Source: Phocaeicola massiliensis B84634 = Timone 84634 = DSM 17679 = JCM 13223 (GTDB lineage: Bacteria > Bacteroidota > Bacteroidia > Bacteroidales > Bacteroidaceae). Taken from it: DNA of 64,000 bases. A model generated the notes under the pieces. The model did not search any database. It was not told the DNA's origin and saw only the letters and a program-made list of their open reading frames with translations. The stretch lies in NCBI RefSeq assembly GCF_000382445.1, contig NZ_KB905472.1, forward strand, positions 436,776 through 500,775. Reading direction: 5' to 3'. Below, piece by piece: positions 12,765 through 58,531 of this stretch (positions are counted from its first letter, which is position 1; each line of letters opens with the position of its first letter). The position numbers were made by a program, and so were the translations under genes.

Positions 12765-12852
12765 TGCTTAACCACGAAGGTGGTTAAGTCTGACCACAAG
12801 GGTGGTTAAAGTTAGTCACGTCCGTGGTGAAAGTTAACCACCTTCGTGGTTA
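12765..12852. repeat. Array of four 22-bp imperfect palindromes before an HU-like gene
   Basis: Four units lie head to tail with an exact 22-bp period: 12765-12786, 12787-12808, 12809-12830 and 12831-12852. Each is an imperfect palindrome with a CCAC...GTGG-type core (unit 1 contains TTAACCACGAAGGTGGTTAA). Unit 4 carries the exact reverse complement of that 20-mer, TTAACCACCTTCGTGGTTAA. In RNA each unit can form a stem of up to 8 bp with a four-base loop. The array lies between the -7 box and the ATG at 12890, so it can act as DNA operators on one helix face or as an RNA hairpin series. Confidence 0.9.
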
Positions 12853-12889
12853 AGGAATAATTGACTTTAACTAATAAAAGAAGAACAGT

Positions 12890-13513
12890 ATGGCAATACT
12901 ATTTGATTGGTATGAGAATCCCCAAAGCTCTGAACAACAGGGAGAAGAGAATGCGTTGCATCCGCGTCTCCGGCTGAATGGGAAGATGAGCACGGCCCAA
13001 CTCCGTGCCCGTATTCAGAAACGTTGTACGCTGACGGAGACGGACGTGATAGCCGTGCTTGATGCGCTGTCACACGCCATGGGCGAGGAATTGGCAGACG
13101 GCAAGCAGGTGCATTTGGACGGTATCGGGTTTTTTCGTCCCAACCTGGTGAGCACCGAGCCGGTGACGGAAAAGACGAAGTACAAGAATACGAAGGTAAA
13201 ACTGAAGGGGATTGTCTACCGACCCGACCAAGCTTTGTTGGATGAGGTGGGGAGGATAAAGGTGCAACGCACCAAGTTCCCTTTTCATTCGGCCAGACTG
13301 ACGGTTGGGGAAATAGATGCACTGCTGACGGAGTATTTCGTGACCCATGATTTTGTGCTGCGGAAGAGTTTCCAACTTCTTTGTGGTATGACACAAACCA
13401 CGGCCAACTCCCATTTACATCGCTTGTGCGAGGAGGGAAAGTTGGAAAATGCAGGACTTCCCAAACAACCGGTTTATAAGCCTGTGAATGGACATTATGT
13501 TGTGAATGACTGA
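12890..13513 (+). CDS. HU-like (HU_rel/HU-HIG family) DNA-binding protein
   Basis: This 207-residue protein has an HU/IHF-related fold in residues 30-120: TAQLRARIQKRCTLTETDVIAVLDALSHAMGEELADGKQVHLDGIGFFRPNL, then the arm region and a RTKFPFHSARLTV tail. Bacteroidetes carry many such divergent HU paralogues of unknown role. The C-terminal part (about 140-190, VTHDFVLRKSFQLLCGMTQTTANSHLHRLCEEGKLEN) resembles a winged-helix or HTH module, which would give sequence-specific binding. It is transcribed through the 22-bp palindrome array, an obvious candidate for autoregulation (inference). Local base composition is more GC-rich than its neighbours. Confidence 0.85.
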   Translation: MAILFDWYENPQSSEQQGEENALHPRLRLNGKMSTAQLRARIQKRCTLTETDVIAVLDALSHAMGEELADGKQVHLDGIGFFRPNLVSTEPVTEKTKYKNTKVKLKGIVYRPDQALLDEVGRIKVQRTKFPFHSARLTVGEIDALLTEYFVTHDFVLRKSFQLLCGMTQTTANSHLHRLCEEGKLENAGLPKQPVYKPVNGHYVVND

Positions 13514-13598
13514 TTCTTTGTATATTCATTATATTATAAGTATTTAATCGGTTTTTTAAGAAACGATTCCATGTTCTGCTGACAAAGGTAAAATAGGG

Positions 13599-13629
13599 AA
13601 ATCCCTACCAACTAATAGGGATTTTCTTT
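13599..13629 (+). terminator. Terminator after the HU-like gene
   Basis: AAATCCCTA (13599-13607) pairs perfectly with TAGGGATTT (13616-13624), followed by TTTCTTTG. A second TAGGG at 13594 could pair with the same CCCTA, giving two mutually exclusive hairpins. The T-tract overlaps the -33 box of the next promoter. Confidence 0.6.
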
Positions 13630-13659
13630 GTTATGGAGTAAAACCTCTGATTATCTTTG
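13627..13659 (+). promoter_or_regulatory. Promoter of the Gly/Trp and Ser/Arg-rich secreted protein
   Basis: TTTG (13627-13630) and TATCTTTG (13652-13659) are separated by 21 bases, a near-perfect Bacteroides -33/-7 pair. The ATG of the downstream gene is 45 bases after the -7 box. Confidence 0.75.
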
Positions 13660-13703
13660 TACCGGAAAAGGTAGATAAAATAACAAATAAACAAGTGACG
13701 AGT

Positions 13704-15128
13704 ATGAAAAAGATTGTATTGACTTCGCTTATGATGGTGTGCTTGCCTTTCCTGGCAGTGGCACAAAGCGTAGAAGACGACCTTTATTTCATCCCGAAAA
13801 AGAAAGCCGAAAAGAAGGAAGAGGTTAAGCAGGAGGTAAAGGTAGCAGTTCCGCAGAAGCAGAACAATACCACTGTCTATGCAGCTCCCGGTTCTACGGT
13901 TGTTGTGAAGGATGTAAAAGGCAATATGCGTGATGTGGATGAGTATAACCGTCGTTATACTTCACAGGATAATACGTTCTCGATGGAGAATGATACTTTA
14001 TATATCGAGGAAAAACCTTTGAATGAGAGAGGTGAATGGGTAAATGGTTTCGAAGGTTCTCAAGATGATTATGAATACGCTATGCGTATCGTTCGCTTCA
14101 GAAATCCCCGATATGCTATCCCTGTGAGCAGCCCGTTGTATTGGGATGTGGTTTACGGACTTCCCTCTTGGGATTGGAATGTGTATGATGACGGATTGTA
14201 TGCATACGTTTTCCCCACTTATACAAATAGATTATGGTGGGATTGGCGCTTTAACTATCTTTACGGACCCGGATGGAGCTTCAGCTGGGGATGGACTTCA
14301 CCATGGTATTATAGCAGTTGGTATCCCAATTATTGGTATGGCGGTTACTGGGGTGGCGGCTATTGGGGACACCATGCTTGGCATCATCACCATCATTATC
14401 CCGGCTATGGCTGGGGCGGCGGTTATTGGGGCGGCGGACATGGATGGTATGGTTCAAGTGCTCACCGTCCGGGCATTCATGCCGGCAGATATAACAACAA
14501 TTATAACTCATCACGCCCGAACCGTAATAATTACGTAAATAACTATGGCCGTACTAACAGCAGTTCCTATGTAGGACGCAGTGAAGGCGGACGCACCAGT
14601 TCAAGTAGTTATCGTTCGGCTGCTCGTAGAGGTTCCAGTTCGGGAAGAGTAGTTTCCGGTTCAAACAGTTCGAATTCGGTTCGTCCGGGAAGAACGACTT
14701 ATCGCTCTCGTACCGGAGAAAACATATCAGTCGGTCAGTCGGCAGGTTTACGTAATGAGAATGTTTACACTCGTCCCGAGGCAGGAAGAGGTTCTTCTTA
14801 CAACAGGCCAAGCAGCACTCGCAGCAGTGTTTCTGGTTCGTCTTCTTATCGGAGAAATTCTGACGGTACGGTAGGTCGCGGAGCATATCGCAGTAACAGT
14901 AACAGCAGTTCTTCTCGCGGTAATTCTTATTCACGGAGGGATTCTTACTCACGGCAGAATTCATCTTCTCGGAATAATATATCAACCTCCAGAAGTAACT
15001 CGTCATACCGTAGCAACAGCTCTTCGTCATCTTCACGCAGCAGCTATTCAAGCGGTGGAAGCAGTGTTTCACGAAGCTCCGGTGGCGGCGGTTCACGTTC
15101 AAGTGGCGGAGGCTCTCGCAGAAGATAA
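13704..15128 (+). CDS. Secreted low-complexity protein (Trp/Tyr/Gly-rich, then Ser/Arg/Asn-rich)
   Basis: ATG at 13704 (MKKIVLTSLMMVCLPFLAVAQ) gives a clear signal peptide; the GTG three codons earlier is unlikely to be the start. Residues 25-150 are a normal mixed domain with conserved-looking DDEYAMRIVRFRNPRYAIPVSSPLYWDVVYGLPSWDWNVYDDG. Residues about 170-255 are extremely rich in Trp, Tyr, Gly and His (for example YWGGGYWGHHAWHHHHHYPG). The last 200 residues are Ser/Arg/Asn/Gly repeats ending SRRR. No enzyme motif is seen. It may be an envelope or matrix protein. It is followed 49 bases later by a FadL-like porin gene and may share its transcript. Confidence 0.85.
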   Translation: MKKIVLTSLMMVCLPFLAVAQSVEDDLYFIPKKKAEKKEEVKQEVKVAVPQKQNNTTVYAAPGSTVVVKDVKGNMRDVDEYNRRYTSQDNTFSMENDTLYIEEKPLNERGEWVNGFEGSQDDYEYAMRIVRFRNPRYAIPVSSPLYWDVVYGLPSWDWNVYDDGLYAYVFPTYTNRLWWDWRFNYLYGPGWSFSWGWTSPWYYSSWYPNYWYGGYWGGGYWGHHAWHHHHHYPGYGWGGGYWGGGHGWYGSSAHRPGIHAGRYNNNYNSSRPNRNNYVNNYGRTNSSSYVGRSEGGRTSSSSYRSAARRGSSSGRVVSGSNSSNSVRPGRTTYRSRTGENISVGQSAGLRNENVYTRPEAGRGSSYNRPSSTRSSVSGSSSYRRNSDGTVGRGAYRSNSNSSSSRGNSYSRRDSYSRQNSSSRNNISTSRSNSSYRSNSSSSSSRSSYSSGGSSVSRSSGGGGSRSSGGGSRRR

Positions 15129-15177
15129 GAGTTAGAGATTAAACTAGACAGATGATAGAATTAAATAGACTTGGTAT

Positions 15178-16758
15178 ATGAAAAATAAAGTAATATTAAC
15201 CGCTTGTGCGTTGCTGGCAATGGCAACGGCAGGTGCACAAAATGCATACGATGCCGAGCGGTTGCTTGGTAATGATTTGAACGGAACAGCTCGTTTTGTG
15301 GGTATGGGTGGTGCAATGGGCGCTTTGGGCGGCGATATGTCTGTGATGGGCACGAACCCTGCTGGTATCGGCATCTATCGCAGCAATGATGTTGCATTGT
15401 CTTTCGGTTTTAATAATACGGCAGCGAAGAGTAATTTTTATGGCACATCGATGAAGGAAGACCGGACACGCGCTTCTTTCGACCAAATCGGTTTTGTATA
15501 TAGCAATAAGATTGGCAATAATACTTCTCTGCGTTTTGTGAATTTTGGGTTCAATTATCATAAGAGCAAGAATTTCAATCGTTTGTTCTCGATGGGAGGA
15601 ATATTGGATAACGGTCTCTCGCAGAGTATGCAATTGGCGGAACTGATGGACATAGGAATGGAAGGAGTAGGGGTTACCGGACCTGAATCGTTTCAGGATA
15701 AGATTATCCGTGTGGACAATCCTTATGCAAAATATTGGAATAAGTTGCCGGTGCTGGGAGTCTTGGGTGCCCAGACCGGTGTGGTGGACTGGCCGACCGG
15801 ACAGGATAGAGTAATGGGTTGGAATTGTTATAGCAATAATTTCTTCAGCAAGGAGACCGGCGGTATCAGTCAATATGATTTTAATGTATCTTTCAATATC
15901 GAAGATAGAGTGTACTTGGGAGCTACTCTGGGAGTATATGATGTCAGCTATAATCGTTTCTCTTCTTATACGGAAGATTTGAATGATGATTTCGGTAAAG
16001 AAAACGGTGGTTATACCTTGGATAATTATTATACTTTGGACGGAACCGGTATTGATTTGAAACTGGGTGTGATTGTCCGGCCTTTCGAAAGTTCGCCTTT
16101 CCGTTTGGGCTTTGCCGTACATACTCCCACATGGTATGATTTGAGAGAGAGCTATAATGCCAATTTATCTTCAAATATTGATTATTATGGAGAGGCGTAC
16201 AATCAGAATCTTGGTGATTTCTTGATTGGACGTGATTATGATTATCTCACTTATGATTATAATCTGACTACACCGTGGAAGTTTAATGTCAGCGCAGGTA
16301 CTACTGTCGGAGGTTTGGTAGCTATCGGAGCAGAATATGAATATCAGGATTATTCTTCCAGTAAATTGGAGGATGTGGATGGTTATCCGCTGGGCGACCA
16401 GTCAAGTGTGGACGATTATCTGAAAGGTGTTCACAATCTGCGTGTAGGTATGGAAACGCGTATTGTTCCCGAGTTTAGCATTCGTGCCGGATATAACTAC
16501 ACATCGGCAGCTTTTGCTAAGGATTCTTATAACGCACTGGCTTTGTATAGCACACATACCGATTATAACAATACGGAGTCAAAGAATACGTTTACTTTCG
16601 GTTTAGGTTATCGCGGAAGCGTGATATATGCCGATTTAGCTTATAAATATGATATGTATAAGTCTAAGTTTTATCCTTTTGATGATGTGGAGCTGAAAGC
16701 CGCACAGGTGGATAACTCACGTCATCAGTTGTTGTTCACTGTAGGAGCACGTTTTTAA
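15178..16758 (+). CDS. OmpP1/FadL-family outer-membrane transport protein
   Basis: This 526-residue beta-barrel protein has a signal peptide ending near ATAGAQ. The N-terminal motif NGTARFVGMGGAMGALGGDMSVMGTNPAGIGIYRSND is the FadL-like hatch start that is often annotated as haemin receptor in Bacteroides. Alternating hydrophobic strands follow to a terminal Phe (HQLLFTVGARF), the usual OMP C-terminal signature. FadL-type proteins pass hydrophobic compounds across the outer membrane; the ligand here is not known. A strong terminator lies about 40 bases after the stop. Confidence 0.85.
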   Translation: MKNKVILTACALLAMATAGAQNAYDAERLLGNDLNGTARFVGMGGAMGALGGDMSVMGTNPAGIGIYRSNDVALSFGFNNTAAKSNFYGTSMKEDRTRASFDQIGFVYSNKIGNNTSLRFVNFGFNYHKSKNFNRLFSMGGILDNGLSQSMQLAELMDIGMEGVGVTGPESFQDKIIRVDNPYAKYWNKLPVLGVLGAQTGVVDWPTGQDRVMGWNCYSNNFFSKETGGISQYDFNVSFNIEDRVYLGATLGVYDVSYNRFSSYTEDLNDDFGKENGGYTLDNYYTLDGTGIDLKLGVIVRPFESSPFRLGFAVHTPTWYDLRESYNANLSSNIDYYGEAYNQNLGDFLIGRDYDYLTYDYNLTTPWKFNVSAGTTVGGLVAIGAEYEYQDYSSSKLEDVDGYPLGDQSSVDDYLKGVHNLRVGMETRIVPEFSIRAGYNYTSAAFAKDSYNALALYSTHTDYNNTESKNTFTFGLGYRGSVIYADLAYKYDMYKSKFYPFDDVELKAAQVDNSRHQLLFTVGARF

Positions 16759-16797
16759 TGGATTTATTGTGAGTCTAATATAGTTAAATTTAATGCG

Positions 16798-16839
16798 AAT
16801 GTATCAGGAGCGAAGCTTGCTCTTGATACATTTTTTTTT
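16798..16839 (+). terminator. Rho-independent terminator after the FadL-like gene
   Basis: TGTATCAGGAGC (16800-16811) pairs with GCTCTTGATACA (16819-16830) across a 7-base loop, 11 of 12 bases plus a G-U pair, followed by nine T. The remaining 188 bases to the next gene hold nothing recognisable. Confidence 0.9.
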
Positions 16840-17027
16840 GTAGGATGTTGTGGCTAAAGGGAAAAGCTGTCTAATTCTTTTGTTGTTTTTGCATTATTGC
16901 TTTATATAATAAGATTGATTTCTGTGCAGTTTGCATTGAGGGGATTGCTTGAGAAAGATTTTGTAACGCAAGGGGATATATGATTGTTTCTTTGCTATTT
17001 GATTAAAAGAGGATTATTAACATGTCA

Positions 17028-18161
17028 TTATTTATGACGGTATTCTTTCTTTTTCCAGAAATTGAGTCCGACATATACACGTAGTGTTCCGAAAGTGTTA
17101 GTCAGTGAAAAATCTTCTTTCCGATAATCGTAGGTGTGCATGACCAGTGCGGCACCTGCGAAGTATTTGCTGTTGTTATAGACTATGGAGGCACGGGTAA
17201 TCAAATCGAAATTGATATCTTTTATCCAGTGGGTATGGGGTTGGGGAGTATCGTTTATCTTTGATTTCTTATAGGCAATGGCGGGAAGGAGTGAAAGATT
17301 GGATACCCAGTTCTTGGCAAAGACCCAGTTATAGCCGTAGCCCAGACAAAGGCTGTAATCCGAATATTTCACTTTCTTGAAAAGTAAAGCATTGTGTAAC
17401 TGATCACGCATCTCGGTCGGTAATTTATCATAATCAAAAGAAATATTATGCTGTGAGTAAGAGAATCCTGCCATTAAAGAACCGGCACTTTTCCTTTGGT
17501 TTGTAGATTGGCTGTAAGCGGCAGGGTAGGAAAATCGTTTGTAATTGAATATCCAGTAAGCGTTCAACCCCTTGATTTTACTTTGAAAGCCGTTGAAGTC
17601 CATATTTTTGGTCGGGGTATTTAATTGGAAGCCATTGTACGAGCGTATCTTGAAATCGCTTCCCGTTTTTCTCCAATACAGGTCTACTCCGAATTTGGAA
17701 CTGTAGAGGTTTAATGCCATTTCTGTTTTCTTGGCTTTATTTTTATGTCCGCCGAATATGTCTTTTACATCAAAAGAGTATCCCAAAAATATCCAGCGCC
17801 AACCAAAATAAACTCCCAATTTGAAGTTGGCATTCGGTGAGAAACTTATGCTTTGTTCACCGTTGTTGCTGTTGCTTCCCAATCGGTAATATTCATACCA
17901 ACTGCTGTGTTCCAGCATAAACGCCAGATTATAAAGGTTGGGGGAGATGAAAGTGGTGTCGACAGCATTGAACTCTTTTCCTACCTTTCTGATTTTCCGC
18001 CCCGTGTGACGCACTGTAGTGGCAATACCATCTGTCAGATTGACAAGAACGCCTTTACTGTTTTGCGCTGTTGTATCCTTCTTTATCTCTTCTTGTGCGG
18101 AAGCATTCAGGATATAAAGAAAGAAGCTGAGCAGCAAACAGATTTTCCGGGCGTTCGTCAT
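17028..18161 (-). CDS. DUF4421 family envelope protein
   Basis: This 377-residue protein has a signal peptide (MTNARKICLLLSFFLYILNASAQ). A DUF4421-like region follows, with DTTFISPNLYNLAFMLEHSSWYEYY, LGVYFGWRWIFLGYSFDVKDIFGG and SKFGVDLYWRKTGSDFKI. The C-terminal half reads as alternating beta strands, suggesting an outer-membrane barrel. The function of the family is unknown. The oxidoreductase gene lies just upstream on the same strand (10-base gap), suggesting one transcript. Confidence 0.8.
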   Translation of the reverse strand: MTNARKICLLLSFFLYILNASAQEEIKKDTTAQNSKGVLVNLTDGIATTVRHTGRKIRKVGKEFNAVDTTFISPNLYNLAFMLEHSSWYEYYRLGSNSNNGEQSISFSPNANFKLGVYFGWRWIFLGYSFDVKDIFGGHKNKAKKTEMALNLYSSKFGVDLYWRKTGSDFKIRSYNGFQLNTPTKNMDFNGFQSKIKGLNAYWIFNYKRFSYPAAYSQSTNQRKSAGSLMAGFSYSQHNISFDYDKLPTEMRDQLHNALLFKKVKYSDYSLCLGYGYNWVFAKNWVSNLSLLPAIAYKKSKINDTPQPHTHWIKDINFDLITRASIVYNNSKYFAGAALVMHTYDYRKEDFSLTNTFGTLRVYVGLNFWKKKEYRHK

Positions 18162-18171
18162 AAATGTGATG

Positions 18172-19161
18172 TTAGAGTTTATTTAAAATACGATCCATTA
18201 CCCAGTTTGTGGGAGTGGCACTGATTCCGTCACAAGTACAGATTGCTTTTCCTTGCAGATGTTCTACCACAGCCTTGATGAGAGGCAGTTGTACATGAGG
18301 GGGATTTTCGGGCAGGAATTCTTCACGGCCTCTTTCTGTGTGGAGGGCAATAGGTTCGTAAGTGAAGACAGAGAAACAAATCATTCCTTTGTCGCCAATG
18401 ATTTCGATGCGGTCTTCTTTGGCAGATTCATGTGCCACAAAGCACCATGAGCCGGAACCGGGCAGACCGGAATCAAATTTGAAACAGGCACTGATGGTGT
18501 CTTCTGCCTGATACAGACCACCTCGGTTGCTTTTATATCCTTCTGCTTCAAGTATGCAGCCGAACATATCTTGTAATAAATCCAATTGATGAGGGGCAAG
18601 GTCGTAAAAATAACCGCCTCCCGCAATGTCCGCCTGTACGCGCCAAGGAAGGTTTGTACTGTTATAATCGAGATTACGTGGTGGTTGGGCAAAACGAATT
18701 TGTATATTGATTACGTTGCCGATTTCTCCGTTCTCTACCATTTGACGCACTTTCTGAAAATAAGGAAGGTAGCGGCGATAGTAAGCTACAAAACACGGAA
18801 CTCCTGTTTCCTGCGAGATGCGGTTGATGCGGGCGCAATCTTCATAGCTGGCTGCCATTGGTTTCTCAATATAGACAGGTTTTCCGGCTTTCATTGCCAT
18901 GATGGCAAAGGTGGCATGGGAAGAGGGGGGCGTAGCGATGTAGACAGCATTTACGTCTTCATCACCAATGAGTTGTTGTACGTCGGTATACCAACGTGGG
19001 ATATTGTGTCTTTTGGCGTATGATTCTGCTTTTTCTTTGTTGCGGCTCATCACAGCCACTACTTGAGAGCCTTCAATCATGGCGAAGGCGGGTCCACTCT
19101 TTTTCTCGGTTACTTCACCGCAACCGATAAAACCCCATTTAACTGTTTTCAGTTTGTTCAT
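18172..19161 (-). CDS. Gfo/Idh/MocA family NAD(P)-dependent oxidoreductase
   Basis: This 329-residue protein has an N-terminal Rossmann fold (VKWGFIGCGEVTEKKSGPAF, with GxGxxT as the nucleotide-binding loop). The family motif EKPMAASYEDC carries the conserved EKP lysine near residue 97. The C-terminal alpha/beta dimerisation domain includes GGGYFYDLAPHQLDLLQDMFG, with the catalytic-type D...H pair. Family members oxidise or reduce sugar or inositol hydroxyls. The exact substrate cannot be read from sequence. It is upstream of and probably co-transcribed with the DUF4421 gene. Confidence 0.9.
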   Translation of the reverse strand: MNKLKTVKWGFIGCGEVTEKKSGPAFAMIEGSQVVAVMSRNKEKAESYAKRHNIPRWYTDVQQLIGDEDVNAVYIATPPSSHATFAIMAMKAGKPVYIEKPMAASYEDCARINRISQETGVPCFVAYYRRYLPYFQKVRQMVENGEIGNVINIQIRFAQPPRNLDYNSTNLPWRVQADIAGGGYFYDLAPHQLDLLQDMFGCILEAEGYKSNRGGLYQAEDTISACFKFDSGLPGSGSWCFVAHESAKEDRIEIIGDKGMICFSVFTYEPIALHTERGREEFLPENPPHVQLPLIKAVVEHLQGKAICTCDGISATPTNWVMDRILNKL

Positions 19162-19250
19162 TACTATAATATTTTCGTCATTTCTCCTGAAATGACAACA
19201 ATTCAGATTGCAAATATATTAAGATTTTGCAATTTAAACCGTATAAAAAA

Positions 19251-20066: not shown

Positions 20067-20074
20067 CACTGCCG

Positions 20075-22177: not shown

Positions 22178-22185
22178 AACGCCCG

Positions 22186-22193
22186 CAAAGATA
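22186..22193 (-). promoter_or_regulatory. -7 box directly before the porin start
   Basis: The minus strand reads TATCTTTG, a perfect TAnnTTTG box. With initiation about 7 bases downstream the transcript would begin at or next to the ATG at 22177. There is no clear TTTG at the -33 position, so the assignment is moderate. Confidence 0.5.
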
Positions 22194-22199
22194 CAATAT

Positions 22200-22245
22200 A
22201 AAAATAAAAGGAAGCGCTTTTCCACTGTGGAAAGTTCTTCCTTTT
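22200..22245 (-). terminator. Terminator of the 2-oxoacid oxidoreductase operon
   Basis: AAAAGGAAG (22206-22214) pairs with CTTCCTTTT (22237-22245), with an inner stem TTTCCAC-TG-TGGAAA. On the minus strand it is followed by a T-rich tract, so it ends transcription coming from korC. Confidence 0.8.
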
Positions 22246-22270
22246 ATTATTCGTTTAGAGTTATTTTAAC

Positions 22271-22813: not shown

Positions 22814-22826
22814 CACTTTTGTTTTT

Positions 22827-23591: not shown

Positions 23592-23609
23592 ATTTTCTCC
23601 TCCTATCGC

Positions 23610-23777: not shown

Positions 23778-23784
23778 ACGTTTA

Positions 23785-24867: not shown

Positions 24868-24880
24868 ATGTTTCTTTATT

Positions 24881-25111: not shown

Positions 25112-25122
25112 AGGGTTAGTTA

Positions 25123-25401: not shown

Positions 25402-25428
25402 TGCTTATGGTAATAATCTTGTTGCATA

Positions 25429-25436
25429 CAAAGATA
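25429..25436 (-). promoter_or_regulatory. -7 box of the oxidoreductase operon
   Basis: The minus strand reads TATCTTTG 28 bases before the TPR gene start. The 318-base gap from here to 25719 otherwise holds only the terminator hairpins of the DUF4468 gene. Confidence 0.55.
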
Positions 25437-25670: not shown

Positions 25671-25719
25671 GATGAATGGTCGGACATGACATATCCGACT
25701 GTTTTTATTTCGGTAAACT

Positions 25720-26927: not shown

Positions 26928-26951
26928 ACTTTTATTATTATAGAGTGAAAT

Positions 26952-42262: not shown

Positions 42263-42600
42263 ATGAAGAAAATTATGAAAGCAAAGAATCAAGCAGTGCC
42301 TGATGAGGTATTAAGCAAGGAGTTCCTTAGCCGGTTTAAGACAGAAGCCGATGTAAGCAATTTCCTGAAGCAACTACATGCTCAGGTATTGGAGAAAATG
42401 CTTGAAGGTAAAATGGATGCCCATTTAGGCTATGAAAAGAATTCTGTAGCGAGAAATATACAGGTAATTCCTGTAATGGAAGTTATGCGAAGAAAATTCA
42501 AACCGAACATGAAGAAGCTGCCATTTCCATTTCCCGTGACCGTAACGGCCAATTGAGTCGATAGCGGTCCCCAAACATGAGAGCCGTGGTCTTCTATTGA
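42263..42600 (+). pseudogene. IS256-family transposase remnant
   Basis: The first 78 codons read as the N-terminus of an IS256/Mutator-type transposase (LSKEFLSRFKTEADVSNFLKQLHAQVLEKMLEGKMDAHLGYEKN). The sequence then breaks by small indels: EAAISISRDRNGQ appears in a second frame near 42515-42555, and ESIAVPKHESRG, the next family motif, near 42556-42592 in another. The catalytic DDE domain is missing. It is an old, decayed copy, in contrast to the two fresh elements in this window. Confidence 0.85.
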
Positions 42601-42798: not shown

Positions 42799-42872
42799 GA
42801 GAACAGTATTTAAGAAGTTAACAATAGATTCCTTATATTTCACACCATCGGATATCCATATATATGTATAGG

Positions 42873-42960
42873 CTTACGCGTACGTACGCGTGACCCGATG
42901 CGTACGTACGTGTAGCCCAACGCGAATATACGCGTGACCCGATGCGTATATACGCGTTGC
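42873..42960. repeat. Array of four 22-bp palindromic units (ACGCGT type)
   Basis: Units lie at 42873-42894, 42895-42916, 42917-42938 and 42939-42960, each exactly 22 bp. Each has a 16-bp palindromic core and a 6-bp linker of the type GACCCG or AGCCCA. Core 1 is a perfect palindrome, ACGCGTACGTACGCGT; core 4 is ATGCGTATATACGCGT; cores 2 and 3 are imperfect. Unit number and period equal those of the array before the HU-like gene, although the sequence is unrelated. No HU-like gene remains beside this copy. Confidence 0.9.
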
Positions 42961-43060
42961 CAAAAGGCCTTGAGGTTTTAAGCAAAGTTCGGCATCTTTT
43001 TGTGTAAGGGTAGATTGCATCACTCCCCCTCACCAAGTCAGTTATTCTCGTTCTCCGTTC

Positions 43061-43116
43061 ATCCTTACATTTTAATCAAAACATTCATATAATCAGACGG
43101 TTAAGAATGTAAGGAT
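43061..43116. repeat. 11-bp inverted repeat in the island
   Basis: ATCCTTACATT (43061-43071) and AATGTAAGGAT (43106-43116) are exact inverted copies with a 34-base spacer. No T-run follows, so its function is unclear. It may be a relic of a mobile element end. Confidence 0.6.
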
Positions 43117-43250
43117 ACCCTTTCATCCTCCTTTCAGCCAGGCTTATCACGTCCTTTCAAATCTGCCTTCAGTATTTGTGTCACGCCCTCAAAAGTATTA
43201 CGAATGAAAGGAGGCTGAGGGGACAATGTAGAGTCCCTATTCACTACCGG

Positions 43251-43264
43251 CCCCCCCCCCCCCC
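43251..43264. repeat. Homopolymer tract of 14 C
   Basis: Fourteen C in a row follow CTACCGG. The tract is unusual in such an AT-rich genome and prone to slippage in replication and in sequencing. It is not within a recognisable gene. The nearest start, the lipoprotein at 43346-43648 on the minus strand, points away from it. Confidence 0.85.
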
Positions 43265-43345
43265 ATCAACAGGACGTTTCAACGGATAATGAAAGGATGA
43301 CGAGAGAAACCGATTTCCGACTGTAGAGCGGAATAATAGTGATAA

Positions 43346-47248: not shown

Positions 47249-47269
47249 AATGTTATAAGGTTTAGATGA

Positions 47270-48967: not shown

Positions 48968-49095
48968 ATATTCTTATTTCTTTTATAATTGCAATCTACA
49001 ACAGAAGGGATAAAAAAAAGTTGAGTTAAAATCATCCAAATTGTGCATAGTTCTAATATTTTTTGTTTTATTTGCACAGATAGGATGATTGAAGT

Positions 49096-52113: not shown

Positions 52114-52163
52114 AAATTATATTTCTATTTATGTGTAAAACAACCGGAAGCCCTTTTAAGTTC

Positions 52164-53345
52164 TCATTTCAGCCAAGTGGCACGTTTCCATATGTATTCC
52201 ATCGGTCCGTGTGAATGATGGCTCATCCACCAGCGGCAGAATGTAAACTGCAAGATGAAGAATGCGATACCCGCCAGGCAACTGACAGTGATGCCATATT
52301 GGTTGTGAAGAGCAAATCCCCAGTTATAGTATAACATAGAACCTACTATGCTTTGAGTAATATAGTTGGTAAGACTCATCTTTCCGTATGGAGTGATTTT
52401 CATTAAAAGATAATGCATATTTGTATTATAGAATGCAAAGATAACTCCCGAAACCAATACCAACATGAATGAGAAGTTAGAAAGCGAGGTGATGATAAGT
52501 GATAAAGGGGTCAATATTGATTTATTGACAATGAATGCCGGCAACATATTGCCTAATCCGTATAAAGGAAAGAATGCGATAAGTGCACCGGCAAGTATTT
52601 TATTCCATACCTTCAAGTTCTCTTTTTGGAATAGTCCGCGTCGTCCGATTAACATACCCAACAAAAACAAAGCTGCCGTTTGGAATACACGTCCGTGATC
52701 CCATGCCCAGGCAAGACTGGCTATTTGTCCTTCCCATAAATTCACCCGGACTGTTTCCAAAAACGAACCATGACTTTGTACGGCAAAGGTGGCATTCCAA
52801 AAGCTGCGGGTGGGAATGGCCGGAGTAATGAAAGACGGGTCCAGGCAGGCACGTATTACATAGTAAAGTGGCAAAGGCTGTATCAATAGCACGCAAGCGA
52901 GAAGGAATACCCATTTGTCTTTCAGACGGCAGGTGAGGGGTAGGATAAAACCTACCAGTGAATAAAGTACCAGCACTTCCGCGGTGAAGAAGCTGGCATT
53001 GATATTGCCTATTAAGAATAACAGGATGAGCCGCCAGCAGAAACGTAATCGGAAATCGTTGCCGCGCATGCGCTGATTATCGTTCTGAATAAAAAAACTA
53101 AAGCCGAAGAGAAGGGCAAATACGGCATATGCCTTTCCGCCGAACATGAAGAATAATCCATTCCAGATTGCTTTGTCCGTAAAGTTGAGCCAGTCACTCT
53201 GCGTGGTTGTATCTGGAAATGAATAGAAATTAAAATGCTCAATGGAGTGCAGAATGATGATTCCCATTACTGCCAATCCGCGTAGCACATCGGCTACATC
53301 TACACGTGCGTGTCCTTTAATTGTGCTTATTACTTTTGTTTCCAT
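52164..53345 (-). CDS. DUF418 family membrane protein
   Basis: This 393-residue protein has about ten transmembrane segments. The start (HARVDVADVLRGLAVMGIIILHSIEHF) is the acyltransferase-3/DUF418-like RG-hxxxN region. The DUF418 C-terminal domain follows (KITPYGKMSLTNYITQSIVGSMLYYNWGF ... FCRWWMSHHSHGPMEYIWKRATW), with the conserved GPxExxWR-type end. The family is thought to be involved in transport or acyl transfer; its exact role is unknown. A minus-strand -7 box TACTTTTG (53364-53371) lies 19 bases before the start. Confidence 0.9.
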   Translation of the reverse strand: METKVISTIKGHARVDVADVLRGLAVMGIIILHSIEHFNFYSFPDTTTQSDWLNFTDKAIWNGLFFMFGGKAYAVFALLFGFSFFIQNDNQRMRGNDFRLRFCWRLILLFLIGNINASFFTAEVLVLYSLVGFILPLTCRLKDKWVFLLACVLLIQPLPLYYVIRACLDPSFITPAIPTRSFWNATFAVQSHGSFLETVRVNLWEGQIASLAWAWDHGRVFQTAALFLLGMLIGRRGLFQKENLKVWNKILAGALIAFFPLYGLGNMLPAFIVNKSILTPLSLIITSLSNFSFMLVLVSGVIFAFYNTNMHYLLMKITPYGKMSLTNYITQSIVGSMLYYNWGFALHNQYGITVSCLAGIAFFILQFTFCRWWMSHHSHGPMEYIWKRATWLK

Positions 53346-53363
53346 GATTTAAACATTGAGTCA

Positions 53364-53432
53364 CAAAAGTAAGTAAAATCTTAAATAGTTGGCTATAATT
53401 AGAGGAAGTAATAAGAAAATTCTCTAATTTTG
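53364..53432. promoter_or_regulatory. Divergent promoters between the DUF418 gene and mfd
   Basis: Two -7 boxes point outward: minus-strand TACTTTTG at 53364-53371 for the DUF418 gene and plus-strand TAATTTTG at 53425-53432 for mfd (21 bases before its ATG). No clear -33 TTTG was found for either. Confidence 0.5.
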
Positions 53433-53452
53433 TTCCCATCTTAAACGAAGAT

Positions 53453-56400
53453 ATGGACATTTCGGAATTACAACGTATATATGCCGGACACCCGAATACT
53501 GCGGGATTGGCTGCGTTATTGGAAGATTCCTCGGTGAGGACTATTTTCCTGGGAGGCTTACATGCTTCAGCGACACCTTTATTTATTTCCTCCTTTATCA
53601 GAGAAAATAAACAGACGTTTGTTTTTATATTGGGAGATCAGGAAGAGGCAGGTTATTTTTATCATGACTTGACGCAAGTAAATGGAGAAGAGAATATTTT
53701 ATTCTTTCCTTCTTCATATCGTCGTGCCATCAAATACGGGCAAAAGGATGCGGCAAATGAGATTCTTCGCACGGAAGTATTGAGCCGTTTGCAGAAAGGT
53801 GATACTTTGTGTGTTGTAACCTATCCCGATGCTCTTGCCGAAAAGGTTGTTTCACAAGAAGAACTGACTGATAAAACATTGAAGCTGAGTGTAGGTGAAC
53901 ATGTGGATACTGAGTTTATTGCAGAAGTGCTTACCGGCTATGGGTTTGAGCATGTGGATTATGTGTATGAGCCGGGGCAATATGCAGTAAGAGGAAGCAT
54001 TATCGATGTTTTTTCTTTTGCTTCTGAATATCCTTATCGCATCGATTTCTTTGGTGACGAGGTGGATAGTATCCGCACTTTTGAAGTGGAGAATCAGCTC
54101 TCGAAGGAAAAGAAGCAAAGCATAGCCATTGTGCCGGAACTGACAAAGGCGACGGACAGGAACGGTGTTTCTTTTTTTGAGTTTATACCAAAGGATACCG
54201 TATTGGCAATGAAGGATTTCCTGTGGGTACGCGAAAGAATACAATCCGTCAGAGATGAGGCGCTCTCTCCACAGGCTTTGGCTGCTTATGAAGGGGAGAA
54301 GACAGAATTGATGAGTTTGGAGACAAAGTTGATTGATGGTTCAGAGTTTGCAGTTCGTGCGTTAGAGTTCAAAAGAATAGAATTTGGGAATAAGCCTACG
54401 GGTACTCCGCAGGCCACTTTGCCCTTTGATACAAGTACGCAACCGATTTTTCACAAGAACTTTGATTTGGTAAGCAGTACGTTTACCGATTATCTGGAAC
54501 AGGGCTATACATTATATATATGTACGGACAGTGAAAAACAGGCTAAGCGGTTGAAAGATATTTTTGAGGAGCGGGGAGATAAAATAGCATTCACTCCGGT
54601 CAATAAGACATTGCACGAAGGATTTAGCGATAATACTCTTCGGAGCTGTTTTTTTACCGACCATCAGATATTCGACCGCTTTCATAAATATAACCTTCGG
54701 AGTGACAAGGCCCGTAGCGGCAAAGTGGCACTGACATTAAAAGAGTTGAGCCAATTTGAACCGGGAGATTATGTTGTGCACATTGACCATGGAGTAGGGA
54801 AGTTTGCCGGGCTGGTGCGTATCCCCAACGGCGATACCACGCAAGAGGTTATCAAGTTGGTTTATCAAAATGAGGATGTCGTCTTTGTGTCTATTCATTC
54901 CTTGCACAAGATTTCCAAGTATAAAGGGAAGGAAGGAGAAACTCCGCGCCTCAATAAACTGGGTACCGGTGCTTGGGAGAAAATGAAGGAACGCACCAAG
55001 ACCAAGATTAAAGATATTGCCCGTGATTTGATTAAGTTATACTCTCAGCGAAAGCAGGAGAAGGGCTTCAGCTATACTCCCGACAGCTTTTTGCAGCATG
55101 AGCTGGAGGCCAGCTTTATTTATGAGGATACTCCCGACCAGCTGAAGACAACTCAGGATGTAAAGGCTGATATGGAAAGCGAACGTCCGATGGACCGTCT
55201 GGTGTGCGGGGATGTTGGTTTTGGAAAAACGGAAATAGCAGTGCGTGCTGCTTTTAAGGCTGTGACGGACAACAAACAAGTGGCGGTACTTGTACCGACT
55301 ACCGTATTGGCTTATCAGCACTTTCAGACTTTCCGTGAACGATTGAAGGATTTTCCGTGTAAAGTGGATTATCTGAGTCGGGCTCGTAGTGCCAAAGACA
55401 GTTCCCGCATCGTGAAAGAATTGGGAGAAGGCAAGATTAATATTCTGATTGGTACGCATAAAATTATTGGCAAAAGCATTAAGTTCAAGGATTTGGGGCT
55501 ACTGATTATAGATGAGGAGCAGAAGTTCGGAGTCAGCGTAAAAGAGAAACTTCGCCAGATAAAAGTCAATGTTGATACTCTGACCATGACGGCTACCCCT
55601 ATTCCGCGTACTTTGCAGTTTTCACTGATGGGTGCGCGCGACCTTTCTGTGATACAGACTCCTCCCCCCAATCGCTACCCCATCCAGACCGAGGTGCATA
55701 CATTCAATGAAGAAATTATCACTGAGGCTATCAACTTCGAGATGAGTCGTAACGGTCAGGTATTTTTTGTAAACAATAGGATACAGAACCTGGTGGAGCT
55801 GGAAGCAATGATTAAACGAAACATCCCGGACTGCCGTGTTTGCATCGGTCATGGACAGATGGAGCCGGAAAAACTTGAGAAGATTATTTTCGACTTTGTG
55901 AACTATGATTATGATGTGCTGCTGGCGACTACCATTATCGAAAGTGGAATTGATATCCCCAATGCCAATACCATTATCATCAATCAGGCGCAGAATTTCG
56001 GGTTGAGCGATTTGCATCAGATGCGTGGACGTGTGGGACGTAGCAATAAGAAAGCATTTTGCTATTTATTGGCTCCTCCACTCACTTCGTTGACTCCCGA
56101 AGCCAAACGTCGTCTGCAGGCCATAGAGAACTTTAGTGATTTGGGTAGTGGAATCCACATTGCCATGCAGGATCTTGATATCCGTGGAGCAGGTAATATG
56201 TTGGGTGCCGAACAAAGTGGTTTCATTGCCGATTTGGGATACGAAACTTATCAGAAGATTTTGGCTGAGGCTGTGAAAGAGCTGAAAGAGGATGAATTTG
56301 CAGACCTTTATGCTGAAGAGCTGCAAGCGGCAGGTGAGGAAAAAATAAGTGGTGAAAACTTTGTGGATGAGTGTCAGGTGGAAAGTGATTTGGAATTATT

Positions 56401-56818
56401 GTTTCCCAATGAATACATTCCCAGCAGCAGCGAACGTATGTTACTTTATCGTGAGTTGGATGGCTTGGAGCTGGATAAAGATGTGTTGGCATTCAAATCC
56501 CGTTTGGAAGACCGTTTCGGGAAAGTTCCGCGCGAAGGTCAGGAACTGCTTCGCATTGTTCCCTTGCGCCGGATGGCAAAACGCTTGGGTGCAGAGAAGG
56601 TTTTCCTGAAAGCCGGACGAATGACACTGTTCTTTGTGAGTAATCCTGACAGTCCTTACTATCAGAGTGCAGCCTTTGGAAAAGTGATTGATTACATGGG
56701 AAAGAATCCCCGTTATTGCAATCTTCGTGAGCAGAATGGTAAACGCAGTATGGTGATAAAGAATGTGGAAACAGTAGAAACAGCGGTCGGCATCTTGCAG
56801 GAAATAGTAAGCCTGTAA
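53453..56818 (+). CDS. mfd: Transcription-repair coupling factor
   Basis: This 1121-residue ATP-dependent translocase removes stalled RNA polymerase and recruits UvrA. The N-terminal UvrB-like domains cover about 1-340 (including VYEPGQYAVRGSIIDVFSF). The RNA-polymerase-interacting domain is near 430-490 (LKELSQFEPGDYVVHIDHGVGKFAGL). Superfamily 2 helicase motifs follow: Walker A GDVGFGKTE near 585, DEEQ near 685, TATPIPRTL and the QMRGRVGRS motif VI near 861. The C-terminal D7 domain includes PSSSERMLLYRELDGLE. All motifs are intact. Its stop precedes the CapA-like gene promoter by 16 bases. Confidence 0.97.
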   Translation: MDISELQRIYAGHPNTAGLAALLEDSSVRTIFLGGLHASATPLFISSFIRENKQTFVFILGDQEEAGYFYHDLTQVNGEENILFFPSSYRRAIKYGQKDAANEILRTEVLSRLQKGDTLCVVTYPDALAEKVVSQEELTDKTLKLSVGEHVDTEFIAEVLTGYGFEHVDYVYEPGQYAVRGSIIDVFSFASEYPYRIDFFGDEVDSIRTFEVENQLSKEKKQSIAIVPELTKATDRNGVSFFEFIPKDTVLAMKDFLWVRERIQSVRDEALSPQALAAYEGEKTELMSLETKLIDGSEFAVRALEFKRIEFGNKPTGTPQATLPFDTSTQPIFHKNFDLVSSTFTDYLEQGYTLYICTDSEKQAKRLKDIFEERGDKIAFTPVNKTLHEGFSDNTLRSCFFTDHQIFDRFHKYNLRSDKARSGKVALTLKELSQFEPGDYVVHIDHGVGKFAGLVRIPNGDTTQEVIKLVYQNEDVVFVSIHSLHKISKYKGKEGETPRLNKLGTGAWEKMKERTKTKIKDIARDLIKLYSQRKQEKGFSYTPDSFLQHELEASFIYEDTPDQLKTTQDVKADMESERPMDRLVCGDVGFGKTEIAVRAAFKAVTDNKQVAVLVPTTVLAYQHFQTFRERLKDFPCKVDYLSRARSAKDSSRIVKELGEGKINILIGTHKIIGKSIKFKDLGLLIIDEEQKFGVSVKEKLRQIKVNVDTLTMTATPIPRTLQFSLMGARDLSVIQTPPPNRYPIQTEVHTFNEEIITEAINFEMSRNGQVFFVNNRIQNLVELEAMIKRNIPDCRVCIGHGQMEPEKLEKIIFDFVNYDYDVLLATTIIESGIDIPNANTIIINQAQNFGLSDLHQMRGRVGRSNKKAFCYLLAPPLTSLTPEAKRRLQAIENFSDLGSGIHIAMQDLDIRGAGNMLGAEQSGFIADLGYETYQKILAEAVKELKEDEFADLYAEELQAAGEEKISGENFVDECQVESDLELLFPNEYIPSSSERMLLYRELDGLELDKDVLAFKSRLEDRFGKVPREGQELLRIVPLRRMAKRLGAEKVFLKAGRMTLFFVSNPDSPYYQSAAFGKVIDYMGKNPRYCNLREQNGKRSMVIKNVETVETAVGILQEIVSL

Positions 56819-56834
56819 CATCGTTTTTCACCGG

Positions 56835-56842
56835 TATCTTTG
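56835..56842 (+). promoter_or_regulatory. -7 box of the CapA-like gene
   Basis: TATCTTTG lies just after mfd and 60 bases before the ATG at 56903. It overlaps an upstream in-frame TTG, which therefore is not the start. Confidence 0.55.
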
Positions 56843-56902
56843 GCTTTTCCGAATATTCTCTTTATCTTGCCGATTATTAACGTTGTAAATCATACCTTTA
56901 AT

Positions 56903-57976
56903 ATGCGGCAGCTCTTTATACTGTTCAGCTTGTGCTTTAGTCTTTCGCTTACTGCGCAAGAGAAAATAACCTTGTTGTTTGTGGGAGACCTGATGCAGCA
57001 TCAGGCACAAATAGAGGCTGCCCGTGTAGGGACATCCTATGATTATTCGTCTTGTTTCAAGCATGTAAAAGATGAGATAAGTGCGGCAGACTTGGCTGTT
57101 GCCAATCTGGAAGTGACATTGGGTGGCAAGCCCTATAGCGGTTATCCGGCGTTTAGTGCTCCCGATGAATATTTGTATGCTGTTAAAGAGGCCGGTTTTG
57201 ATGTGTTGCTTACAGCGAATAATCATTGTCTTGACCGAAGGAAAAAAGGATTGGAACGCACCATTCTGATGCTGGACTCCTTGCATATTCCACATGCGGG
57301 CACTTATGTAAATAAGGGCAAACGGGATGAGGGCTATCCCTTGTTGATAGAAAAGAATCATTTTCGTATTGTTCTGCTCAATTATACTTATGGAACAAAC
57401 GGCATTGAAGTCACTCCGCCCAATGTGGTGAACTACATTGACCGGGAACAAATTAAGAAAGATATTCTTAAGGCGCGCCGCATGATGCCCGATGTCATTA
57501 TAGCGTGTATGCATTGGGGGATAGAATATCGTTCGTTGCCTGAGCGTTCGGAACGGGACTTGGCAGATTGGATGATAACTCAGGGGGTAGATCATGTGAT
57601 AGGTTCTCATCCCCATGTACTTCAACCCATGGAGGTCATACAAGATAAGCATACTCCTGCCAAACATGTCGTTGTGTATTCATTGGGTAATTTTATATCA
57701 AACATGTCGAAAGAAGATACGGATGGGGGAGCTATGGTGAAATTGGAATTGCAGCGTATTTTTAGAATAACTCGTTTGATTAACTGTGAATATTCTCTAG
57801 TTTGGACTTCACGTCCCAATTTAAGTGGAAAAAAAGGATTTGAGCTTTATCCGGCTTCTTTCCTTGATAAACCGATTAAAAATGAGGAGGTTAGTGCGAT
57901 GAAACGTTTTCTTATGAGAGCTAGAATATTGTTTGATACATACAATAGAGGAATAAAAGAATATTTTTTTGAATAA
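56903..57976 (+). CDS. CapA-family metallophosphatase-like protein
   Basis: The start at 56903 (MRQLFILFSLCFSLSLTAQ) gives a signal peptide and 357 residues. It matches the PGA_cap/CapA family related to calcineurin-like phosphatases: TLLFVGDLMQHQAQI (metal Asp), DLAVANLEVTLGGKPYSGYPAFSAPDEYLYAVKEAGFDVLLTANNHCLDR (NxH), IACMHWGIEYRSLPERSERDLADWMITQGVDHVIGSHPHVLQPMEV (GxHxH) and VVYSLGNFISNM. CapA proteins take part in poly-gamma-glutamate capsule synthesis in Bacillus. In Bacteroides the role is unknown, and no capB/capC genes are nearby. Confidence 0.9.
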   Translation: MRQLFILFSLCFSLSLTAQEKITLLFVGDLMQHQAQIEAARVGTSYDYSSCFKHVKDEISAADLAVANLEVTLGGKPYSGYPAFSAPDEYLYAVKEAGFDVLLTANNHCLDRRKKGLERTILMLDSLHIPHAGTYVNKGKRDEGYPLLIEKNHFRIVLLNYTYGTNGIEVTPPNVVNYIDREQIKKDILKARRMMPDVIIACMHWGIEYRSLPERSERDLADWMITQGVDHVIGSHPHVLQPMEVIQDKHTPAKHVVVYSLGNFISNMSKEDTDGGAMVKLELQRIFRITRLINCEYSLVWTSRPNLSGKKGFELYPASFLDKPIKNEEVSAMKRFLMRARILFDTYNRGIKEYFFE

Positions 57977-57991
57977 TTTTTCGGCAAAAAG

Positions 57992-58022
57992 TTTGCAGAT
58001 ATAAAAAAAAGCCTTACCTTTG
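57992..58022 (+). promoter_or_regulatory. Promoter of tRNA-His
   Basis: TTTG (57992-57995), a 19-base spacer and TACCTTTG (58015-58022) form a textbook Bacteroides promoter 28 bases before the tRNA. It starts 16 bases after the CapA-like gene stop. Confidence 0.85.
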
Positions 58023-58050
58023 CATCGCTTTTGAAAGGAAAGCCAATACG

Positions 58051-58124
58051 GTGGCTGTAGTTCAGTTGGTTAGAGCGTCAGATTGTGGTTCTGAATGTCG
58101 TGGGTTCGAGTCCCATCTGCCACC
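58051..58124 (+). tRNA. tRNA-His (anticodon GTG)
   Basis: The sequence folds as a cloverleaf. The acceptor stem is GTGGCTG with CTGCCAC (one U-U mismatch at 6:67) and the discriminator C is at 58124. The anticodon stem is TCAGA/TCTGA with loop TTGTGGT, giving anticodon GTG. The T-arm is GTGGG-TTCGAGT-CCCAT. A G at 58050 supplies the extra G-1 typical of tRNA-His, pairing with C73. CCA is not encoded. Confidence 0.96.
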
Positions 58125-58131
58125 CCGATAG

Positions 58132-58165
58132 AAGAGGAAGTTCGATAAGAATTTCCTCTTTTTTA
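58132..58165 (+). terminator. Terminator after tRNA-His
   Basis: AAGAGGAA (58132-58139) pairs with TTCCTCTT (58153-58160), followed by a run of six T. The 230 bases after it contain two copies of TCAGTTTGAAAA near 58170-58220 and no gene. Confidence 0.85.
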
Positions 58166-58407
58166 TTGTAGTAGGGGCTCAGTTTGAAAAGGGCTCTGGG
58201 GGGCGGTTCAGTTTGAAAACTTGGGGCAATCCGAAAAGTTGTTTCGGCTTCAAAAGAAAGTTGATAAAAGTTGCTTTCACGCATTGCATGTATTGAATCC
58301 TTTTGTTTATCAATGTTTCGGTGTGAAAGGAGACCGATAATGTTCATTTCACACAAAATCTACCCCGTCAGGGAGCATGTTTTACATGTACGTTCGCATG
58401 TACCTCC

Positions 58408-58531
58408 AAAAAGACAAGGACATTTTTTTTAAAGACCAAGAGCTTTCCCAAAAAGACCATAGTCTTTGTAAAAAACTTCAAGACCTTTTTGAAAAAGTTG
58501 GAAGAGTTTTCAGAAAACTTCAAAGTCTTTT
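58408..58531. repeat. Array of six ~21-bp imperfect palindromes (AAAGAC/GTCTTT type)
   Basis: Six A/T-rich dyads are centred near 58417, 58438, 58459, 58481, 58502 and 58522, a spacing of 21 bases. The clearest unit is AAAGACCATAGTCTTT at 58452-58467, a perfect 6-bp-arm palindrome; others such as AAAACTTCAAAGTCTTTT (58514-58531) are imperfect. Open frames through the array on both strands read as low-complexity KDK/FEK repeats and are not credible genes. It lies between tRNA-His and the PL8 lyase gene. Confidence 0.75.

Follow-up and report, generated by a model that had tools for sequence, protein, structure and literature searches.

HU proteins bind DNA with little sequence preference, and to our knowledge the reason why Bacteroidales carry so many HU paralogues is open. 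REP/BIME sequences with their RAYT are intergenic dispersed palindromes tied to one repeat-carrying gene. Autoregulated repressors act at tandem operators, and in parS/ParB and matS/MatP a protein is paired with private palindromic sites on the chromosome. In satellite islands, iteron origins lie beside VapE/Rep primase-helicases.

The window, a stretch of 64,000 nucleotides of Phocaeicola massiliensis, contains three tandem arrays. The original prediction suggested that they may be one class with a shared architecture and different sequences, possibly functioning as operator or nucleoid-anchoring sites with dedicated DNA-binding partners such as HU-type proteins. Array A (12767-12854, no strand assigned) has four units spaced exactly 22 bp apart (12767-12788, 12789-12810, 12811-12832 and 12833-12854) with the core CTTAACCAC nnnn GTGGTTAAG, and a weak fifth dyad centre lies just past them. 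Array B (42852-42959, no strand assigned) has five units spaced exactly 22 bp apart, of which unit 1 is AT-rich and the others are alternating purine-pyrimidine with the core GCGTACGTACGC / GCGTATATACGC. Array C (58386-58531, no strand assigned) has about six to seven units spaced at 20.5-21.5 bp, and its A- and T-tracts are helically phased; the dyad-chain detector places seven centres in it, one of them negative.

The detector was used in a fixed-arm version, a lax palindrome-chain detector having been dropped since it produced long chance chains. In the window it ranks B first (24.1), A second (21.7) and C third (15.3), and the best score over 100 dinucleotide shuffles of the window is 15.6. 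Both A and B therefore exceed all 100 shuffles, and the possibility that such arrays are no commoner than in shuffled sequence falls away for these two. The score of C was equalled or exceeded in 2 of 100 shuffles and its dyads alone are near chance, but C is a genuine repeat because it recurs across the genome. Counting the window copy, A is found at 7 places in its own genome, and matches at E<=1 number 39 for B and 38 for C. A 400-kb sample of the same genome, picked independently of the arrays, contains two tandem segments scoring at least 18, against 0.00 per shuffle, and no dyad chain that scores as high. Compared with the 58 HU-linked arrays described below, these two are nearest to HU cores of the same genome, L099 (0.84, tied with orthologues) and L107 (0.58, a weak match). 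Nothing pointed to an already catalogued REP/BIME family: an Rfam scan of the window at gathering scores found no RNA family except a tRNA at 58051-58124, and no description of arrays A, B and C or of the HU-linked arrays was found in the literature searched, mostly without subscription papers.

Array A ends 35 bp ahead of a gene (12890-13513, + strand) for a 207-aa protein with an HU-HIG domain and a C-terminal tail, the predicted cognate protein of the array. The protein matches PF18291 with 107.2 bits (Pfam cut-off 26.2), and its tail has no match to Pfam models at E<=0.001. The AlphaFold model (mean pLDDT 82.8) predicts a winged helix in the tail, in the order helix-helix-helix-strand-strand at residues 139-198 with block pLDDT 70-89 (helices 139-152, 158-165 and 169-181; strands 185-187 and 195-198). 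The model shows an HU fold plus winged-helix elements, and its best Foldseek match is 4fmr (BVU_2165). A promoter-like -7 box, TATCTTTG (12745-12752, + strand), lies 14 bp before the array; it is of the TAnnTTTG type, which we take to be the Bacteroidales-type -7 consensus and used to call promoter-like boxes. Among 82 array A units from three genomes, the half-site positions carry 1.54 bits each versus 0.28 at the centre.

Similar arrays accompany most of the related genes examined in the genus. The set of HU-HIG loci was chosen and not random, comprising 10 genes of the same genome, 7 loci from a pattern scan (three of them from Bacteroides or its kin), and 29 and 60 of the matches listed. 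Removal of identical upstream regions reduced 107 hits to 103, of which 71 have a winged-helix-sized tail and 32 do not. Within 300 bp upstream, 58 of the 71 genes with a tail have a tandem array at lags of 20-23, and 13 have none at threshold. The period is 22 bp in 47 of these 58, with about four units, and the array end lies about 58 bp upstream of the ATG. At lag 22, with a direct-repeat score of at least 14 and 220 bp upstream, 46 of 71 genes with a tail score, versus 0 of 32 without and 0 of 71 shuffled (Fisher 2.6e-11 for tail versus no tail). Among the tail-less genes, 3 of 32 score at lag 21 and 3 of 32 at lag 20 in the same 220 bp, and 9 of 32 are positive once the test is relaxed to 20-23 bp and 300 bp, mostly through short-period repeats. 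One gene counted as tail-less, L121, has a tail of 49 residues and a 23-bp palindrome array upstream. For other genera, 5 of 14 tail-less loci pass, one of them as a run of N (4 of 13 without that locus), and one of the 14 has only 2 bp of upstream sequence; among the 10 passing loci with a tail, two have an identical repeat. The folded consensus is dyad-symmetric above the 99% null in 46 of the 58 HU-linked arrays, and 8, including L036, L107 and L099, are at or below the 95% null. Of the 58 arrays, 36 have a TAnnTTTG box close to their start, versus 6.6% of shuffled regions. At these 36 loci the array sits at a promoter-like box, the position expected of an operator array.

The cores of the HU-linked arrays fall into about 23 types that track protein relatedness, which is the correlation of core clusters with HU paralogues that the original prediction proposed to look for. 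Pairs from the same protein cluster share an array cluster in 45 of 53 cases, versus 71 of 1600 for other pairs. Mean array similarity is 0.35 at winged-helix identities below 0.30 and 0.82-0.88 above 0.70 (Mantel 0/500), with a dip to 0.48 in the 0.60-0.70 bin. The correlation with array similarity is 0.38 for HU-domain identity and 0.31 for winged-helix identity; since the HU domain correlates at least as well, the winged helix does not stand out. The L099 and L102 proteins are 63% identical, and among the sites listed for them in the P. massiliensis genome they share no place except the array of the L102 gene itself.

Further copies of the arrays are scattered in the genome, as found in a search that covered A and the arrays of L102 and L115. 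Dispersed A copies occur in 5 of 60 genomes, all five with an orthologue of the HU gene of array A (HU-A), and no further Phocaeicola with HU-A turned up when a second collection was scanned by pattern. The L102 array is present at 15 places in its own genome at E<=1e-4, the gene's copy counted, and in 40 genomes its protein has no full-length match above 65% outside that genome; the exceptions are weak array matches at 4 places in G015 and a partial protein match in G010 (73% over 81 residues). The L115-type array is present in G010, G015 and G000, all with an L115 orthologue, and G019 has neither this array nor such a protein at E<=1e-30; the L115 query held only the region before the array and the first two units, and its matches are mostly 33-54 bp. 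All 31 dispersed A and L102 loci examined lie outside ORFs of at least 90 aa; one, L093, runs 39 bp into the edge of a 100-aa ORF. In an A copy common to two species, 4 of 64 half-site positions are changed versus 8 of 16 centre positions (p 1.4e-4). The HU-A array of P. vulgatus has shifted to GTGA half-sites, and its one clear dispersed copy is mostly GTGG; P. vulgatus ATCC 8482 also has the L115 type, with several dispersed copies. Together, private cores and dispersed copies for the three searched arrays suggest that each HU-winged-helix protein likely recognises its own private set of sites, and each of the many such genes in the genus probably has its own half-site code.

A different pattern holds for arrays B and C. 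At no fewer than 10 places in the genome, a B-type and a C-type match (E<=1) are at most 200 bp apart, and the two types form parts of one element, in which 22-bp alternating purine-pyrimidine units are followed by 21-bp phased A-tract units. The idea of a shared architecture with different sequences thus describes the window but not the genome. The full element is about 2.57 kb with sharp ends and one gene seen, a VapE-like primase-helicase, with the B and C arrays just upstream of it; no clear target duplication is visible at the ends. Array B belongs to a solo copy (42847-43336, no strand assigned) that has no VapE-like gene and whose tail is homologous to the L210 tail, and array C is related to the element's C part, with most B units missing. 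Solo copies keep the right end of the VapE-bearing form, a MITE-like trait with the interior gone. The best similarity to any of the 58 HU-linked arrays is 0.49 for B and 0.53 for C, which is the level between unrelated arrays. No HU gene was found in the element. When the B/C loci were searched by tblastn with 40 of the 71 HU proteins, five weak matches appeared (E 3e-4 to 0.009): four are in L208 on the PF18291 matches L113/L114, about 8 kb from its arrays, and the fifth is in L210 but outside the element. Because B and C resemble no HU-linked array and sit in a VapE element, a single class for A, B and C is rejected: array A has the company of 57 other HU-linked arrays and a likely dedicated HU partner as predicted, and B and C appear to have neither. 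The B and C arrays are probably the replication or control region of the VapE element.

A divergent VapE-like gene also faces the array at 16 of the 71 HU loci with a tail, versus 0 of 32 controls, three of which have less than 0.6 kb upstream. The 16 are a lower bound since the loci span only 0.8-3 kb upstream. The VapE-like genes of the HU loci and of the B/C element are related, and both proteins match primase and helicase families. The array class of A and the B/C element are thus linked through related VapE-like genes.

These observations bear on the strongest alternative, in which the arrays are iteron-like origin or control regions of small mobile elements with VapE and HU genes; the dispersed copies would then be MITE-like, internally deleted relics that retain the cis-acting part, with any host role incidental. 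It would account for the VapE-like genes at both kinds of array, for the sharp ends and solo copies of the B/C element, and for the A copies of P. sartorii, which are pieces of a larger element. Each of the eight P. sartorii loci compared joins a piece from the outer part of the HU-A locus (within 363-853) to one from its array segment (within 2810-3006), and three of the eight also keep the 3' end of that locus (from 3497). They lack the VapE-like and HU interiors, and two copies have inverted ends. Part of the dispersal is therefore mobile-element history. These copies fit a MITE-like pattern, with the ends of a longer coding copy retained and the interior deleted. However, no VapE-like gene is found in the 0.8-3 kb upstream at 55 of the 71 loci, and in P. 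massiliensis, and for the most part in P. faecalis, the A copies have nothing beyond the array and its immediate flanks in common with the HU-A locus. None of the 11 L102 copies compared shares a piece of at least 80 bp with the HU gene itself, and no coding parent is seen for this set. The half-sites of the A copy found in two species are conserved, as they need not be in an inert relic. On balance this alternative seems rather unlikely.

It is improbable that the dispersed copies are ordinary operators for the regulon of each HU-winged-helix protein. The cognate cores and the promoter-like box at 36 of 58 gene-linked arrays are what such a regulon would have, but the 31 dispersed A and L102 copies show no excess upstream of genes. 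The L102 set lies in 4 convergent, 6 tandem and 2 divergent gaps, with no promoter preference, and the promoter-like box seen at the L102 gene does not recur in the aligned dispersed copies. A tandem-hairpin 5' UTR leader that controls translation of the HU gene is disfavoured to the point of being very improbable: since the array follows the promoter-like box it is predicted to be transcribed, and array B alone has more G-T than A-C symmetry breaks (251 versus 121, an excess that may reflect copies inheriting one consensus), but the breaks across 46 HU-linked arrays are equal (107 G-T, 113 A-C), a lack of G-U bias that favours a DNA site over an RNA hairpin, the strict 22-bp phasing with half-sites about every 11 bp suits one face of the DNA helix, and dispersed copies occur in convergent, divergent and tandem gaps alike.

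The reading that appears likeliest, with moderate confidence, is that array A is the operator of its own HU gene and its dispersed copies are distant sites, with B/C a separate VapE element. The HU-HIG protein would use its winged helices to bind array A, with dimers sitting side by side at intervals of two helical turns, and may thereby repress transcription of its own gene. The dispersed copies would serve as distant sites for the same protein, whose HU part might bend or wrap the DNA or bridge distant arrays. More tentatively, and as a possibility short of probable, Bacteroidales including Phocaeicola could run many parallel self-addressed chromosome-organising systems. Each HU-winged-helix paralogue would have a private 4 x 22-bp address, present at its gene as well as at scattered sites, and would wrap or bridge only those, and duplication would split both protein and address set, as for L099 and L102. 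VapE-linked elements may have spread the addresses.

If private codes exist, the question of the many paralogues becomes directly testable, since half-sites can be read from sequence across about 23 core types, and HU-winged-helix proteins may be an overlooked family of site-specific nucleoid proteins. Some of the dispersed intergenic repeats in these gut bacteria would also gain a candidate protein and a possible origin.

The window protein belongs with the HU-HIG clade of HU/IHF proteins, given its PF18291 match and 4fmr as its best solved structural match. The HU-HIG domain and its fusion were already known; the Pfam description covers the domain fusion alone, and the array class of A, with its 22-bp arrays and dispersed copies, goes unmentioned in the part of the literature that was searched. 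Like REP/BIME, the HU-linked arrays are dispersed intergenic palindromes with one gene carrying the same repeats, but they have an HU/winged-helix partner, strict 22-bp phasing, about four units and one set per paralogue. The B/C arrays resemble satellite-island iterons in lying just upstream of a VapE-like gene, but their element is about 2.57 kb with one gene seen. As with tandem operators, parS/ParB and matS/MatP, the predicted sites are private palindromes at the protein's own gene and around the chromosome. In contrast to all of these, the HU-linked sets are many, parallel and differently coded within one genus, and their proteins have the HU fold.

Array A (12767-12854) consists of four units of 22 bp and lies 35 bp upstream of a gene (HU-A, 12890-13513) for a 207-residue protein with the HU-like DNA-binding domain PF18291 (HU-HIG). 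A TATCTTTG box at 12745-12752 ends 14 bp before the array. No match to a VapE-like (primase-helicase-like) protein was found within 1.5 kb upstream of the HU gene in the window, and the neighbor past the small upstream ORF is PrmA. A dyad-chain detector ranks arrays A, B (42852-42959) and C (58386-58531) as the top three chains of the 64-kb window. The original prediction that such arrays are commoner than in shuffled sequence is borne out for A and B, which outscore all 100 shuffles of the window, whereas the score of C, although third best, is reached by two of the 100.

The 4.65-Mb genome has 17 PF18291 matches. All seven long HU-HIG genes have an upstream tandem-repeat score of at least 14, with a sequence that differs for each, and the upstream repeat at HU-HIG locus L107 is weak and lacks a dyad. 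No upstream array is seen by eye in three short HU-HIG genes and five classical HU genes of this genome. Among 103 non-redundant HU-HIG genes, mostly from Phocaeicola, 71 have a tail of at least 70 residues past the HU domain and 32 have a shorter one. Within 220 bp upstream, a score of at least 14 at lag 22 is found for 46/71 long-tail and 0/32 short-tail genes (Fisher 2.6e-11), and at lag 21 for ten and three, respectively; no shuffled upstream region reaches this score. A looser test (300 bp, lags 20-23) is passed by 58/71 long-tail genes and by 9/32 short-tail genes, the latter mostly owing to short-period repeats; L121, with a tail of 49 residues, has a true palindrome array with a 23-bp period. 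The 58 arrays have a median of 3.9 units, span about -142 to -58, and have periods of 22 bp (47 arrays), 21 bp (10) or 23 bp (1). Dyad symmetry of the folded consensus units is above the 99% null for 46 of them and above the 95% null for 50. At 27 loci from other genera, the looser test is passed by 10/13 genes with a tail and 5/14 without (one being a run of N). The association of tail and array is strong genus-wide and looser in other genera. Three loci in other genera (L242, L248 and L253) have two successive 22-bp repeats, unlike in sequence, upstream of the HU-HIG gene.

The 58 arrays comprise about 23 core types (similarity cut-off 0.6), and these correlate with the HU paralogues, as the original prediction anticipated: 45 of 53 pairs from the same protein cluster share an array cluster, versus 71 of 1600 other pairs, and 0/500 Mantel permutations match the observed array-protein correlation. 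Array similarity is at background (0.35) when identity in the winged helix predicted for the tail is below 30%, and is 0.57 at 50-60%, 0.48 at 60-70% and 0.82-0.88 above 70%. Since HU-domain identity correlates with array similarity as well (0.38 versus 0.31 for winged-helix identity), these results do not set the winged helix apart.

Conservation of the half-sites suggests that the array A type is selected as a DNA site. In 82 A units, information is 1.54 bits per position in the half-sites versus 0.28 in the four central bases. One A copy lies between the same two genes in P. massiliensis and P. faecalis (L069 and L078), with changes at 4/64 half-site bases versus 8/16 central bases (p = 1.4e-4). 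Symmetry-breaking pairs in 46 arrays include 107 G-T and 113 A-C, where about 74 each are expected; this equal excess is the pattern expected of transitions in a DNA dyad, not of RNA pairing.

The three HU-linked arrays searched for further copies are also dispersed, and none of 31 such loci checked is inside an ORF. Array A occurs at seven places in its own genome, including the one at HU-A, and its matches (E<=0.001) occur in 5/60 genomes, all five with an HU-A orthologue. The P. vulgatus version has two clear places in P. vulgatus. The array of L102, another HU-HIG locus, occurs at 15 places in its own genome (E<=1e-4); elsewhere among 40 genomes, P. faecalis has five weak matches at four places and the other 38 have none. 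The L102 protein has no full-length match above 65% in the other genomes of the 40, and its match in P. vulgatus ATCC 8482 is partial (73% over 81 residues). The array type of HU-HIG locus L115 is present in P. vulgatus ATCC 8482, P. faecalis and G000, a further genome searched; it was not found in P. sartorii, which has no protein of the L115 group at E<=1e-30. In P. massiliensis the L115 and L102 searches have no place in common except the L102 gene's own array. An unselected 400-kb sample (20 stretches over four contigs) has two tandem segments (lags 20-23) scoring at least 18 versus 0.00 per shuffle and two dyad chains of at least 14 versus 0.2, but no dyad chain of at least 18. For the two tandem segments, the closest of the 58 cores come from paralogues within this genome: the L099 group (0.84) and, as a weak match, L107 (0.58).

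In P. sartorii there is support for a mobile-element origin of the A copies: all eight compared join an outer segment of the HU-A locus to its array segment, and three of them also have its 3' end. They lack the interior parts of both the VapE-like and the HU gene, and two copies have inverted ends. What the P. massiliensis copies have in common with the HU-A locus is limited to the array and its close flanks, as is mostly the case in P. faecalis. A divergent VapE-like gene lies across the array at 16/71 long-tail loci versus 0/32 controls. Each of the 11 aligned L102 copies forms a unit of some 210 bp that has inverted flanks, and none contains a piece of HU coding sequence. For the A copies, a mobile origin is compatible with function as a site.

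Arrays B and C do not belong to a single class with A, as had been proposed, since they have no likeness to any of the 58 HU-linked arrays and no HU gene was found in their element; the proposed HU-type partner is supported for A only. At no fewer than ten places in the genome, B and C are at most 200 bp apart. The full element (L210, 4235-6807) has sharp ends and contains a VapE-like gene, whose product has a VapE-like domain and DUF3874, followed by B, C and a tail. Solo copies lack this gene; one of them occupies 42847-43336 in the window, which also has a C-type copy (58386-58531). B units show purine-pyrimidine alternation, and C units have A- and T-tracts in helical phase. The element is found in 42 plasmid records; 40 of these come from Phocaeicola, with P. 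massiliensis as the source of all ten listed. Some copies have a further small repeat, a GGGGCGAGG...CCCTGCCCCTAC hairpin (L210, 6222-6300), inserted between B and C; this repeat is also present at other places. The B/C copy in the window includes a 14-C run (43251-43264), possibly a slippage or assembly-sensitive tract. Adjoining array B is a 97-residue ORF (42263-42556) without a Pfam match that resembles a truncated transposase. In P. faecalis a tail-less HU-HIG gene is preceded, at a distance of about 570 bp, by a B-like array (L190, 301-390). The segment adjoining array C (58252-58358), with TTTCACAC-type inverted repeats, also occurs in L042/L215 and in the P. faecalis A-array copy L094, and may link A- and C-type elements. 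A tRNA gene (58051-58124) immediately precedes the array C segment; element insertion at tRNA genes is common.

Anatomy and conservation give good support to the prediction that the HU-linked array is the binding site of the HU-winged-helix protein encoded beside it. The protein would repress transcription and would wrap and bridge DNA at the arrays. The structure modelled for the window protein (mean pLDDT 82.8, pTM 0.51) has a predicted HU fold, and the helices and strands of its C-terminal part follow in the order of a winged helix. The 22 chains that match it by sequence are HU or IHF, and the best solved structural match of the model is BVU_2165 (4fmr, E 8.7e-5).
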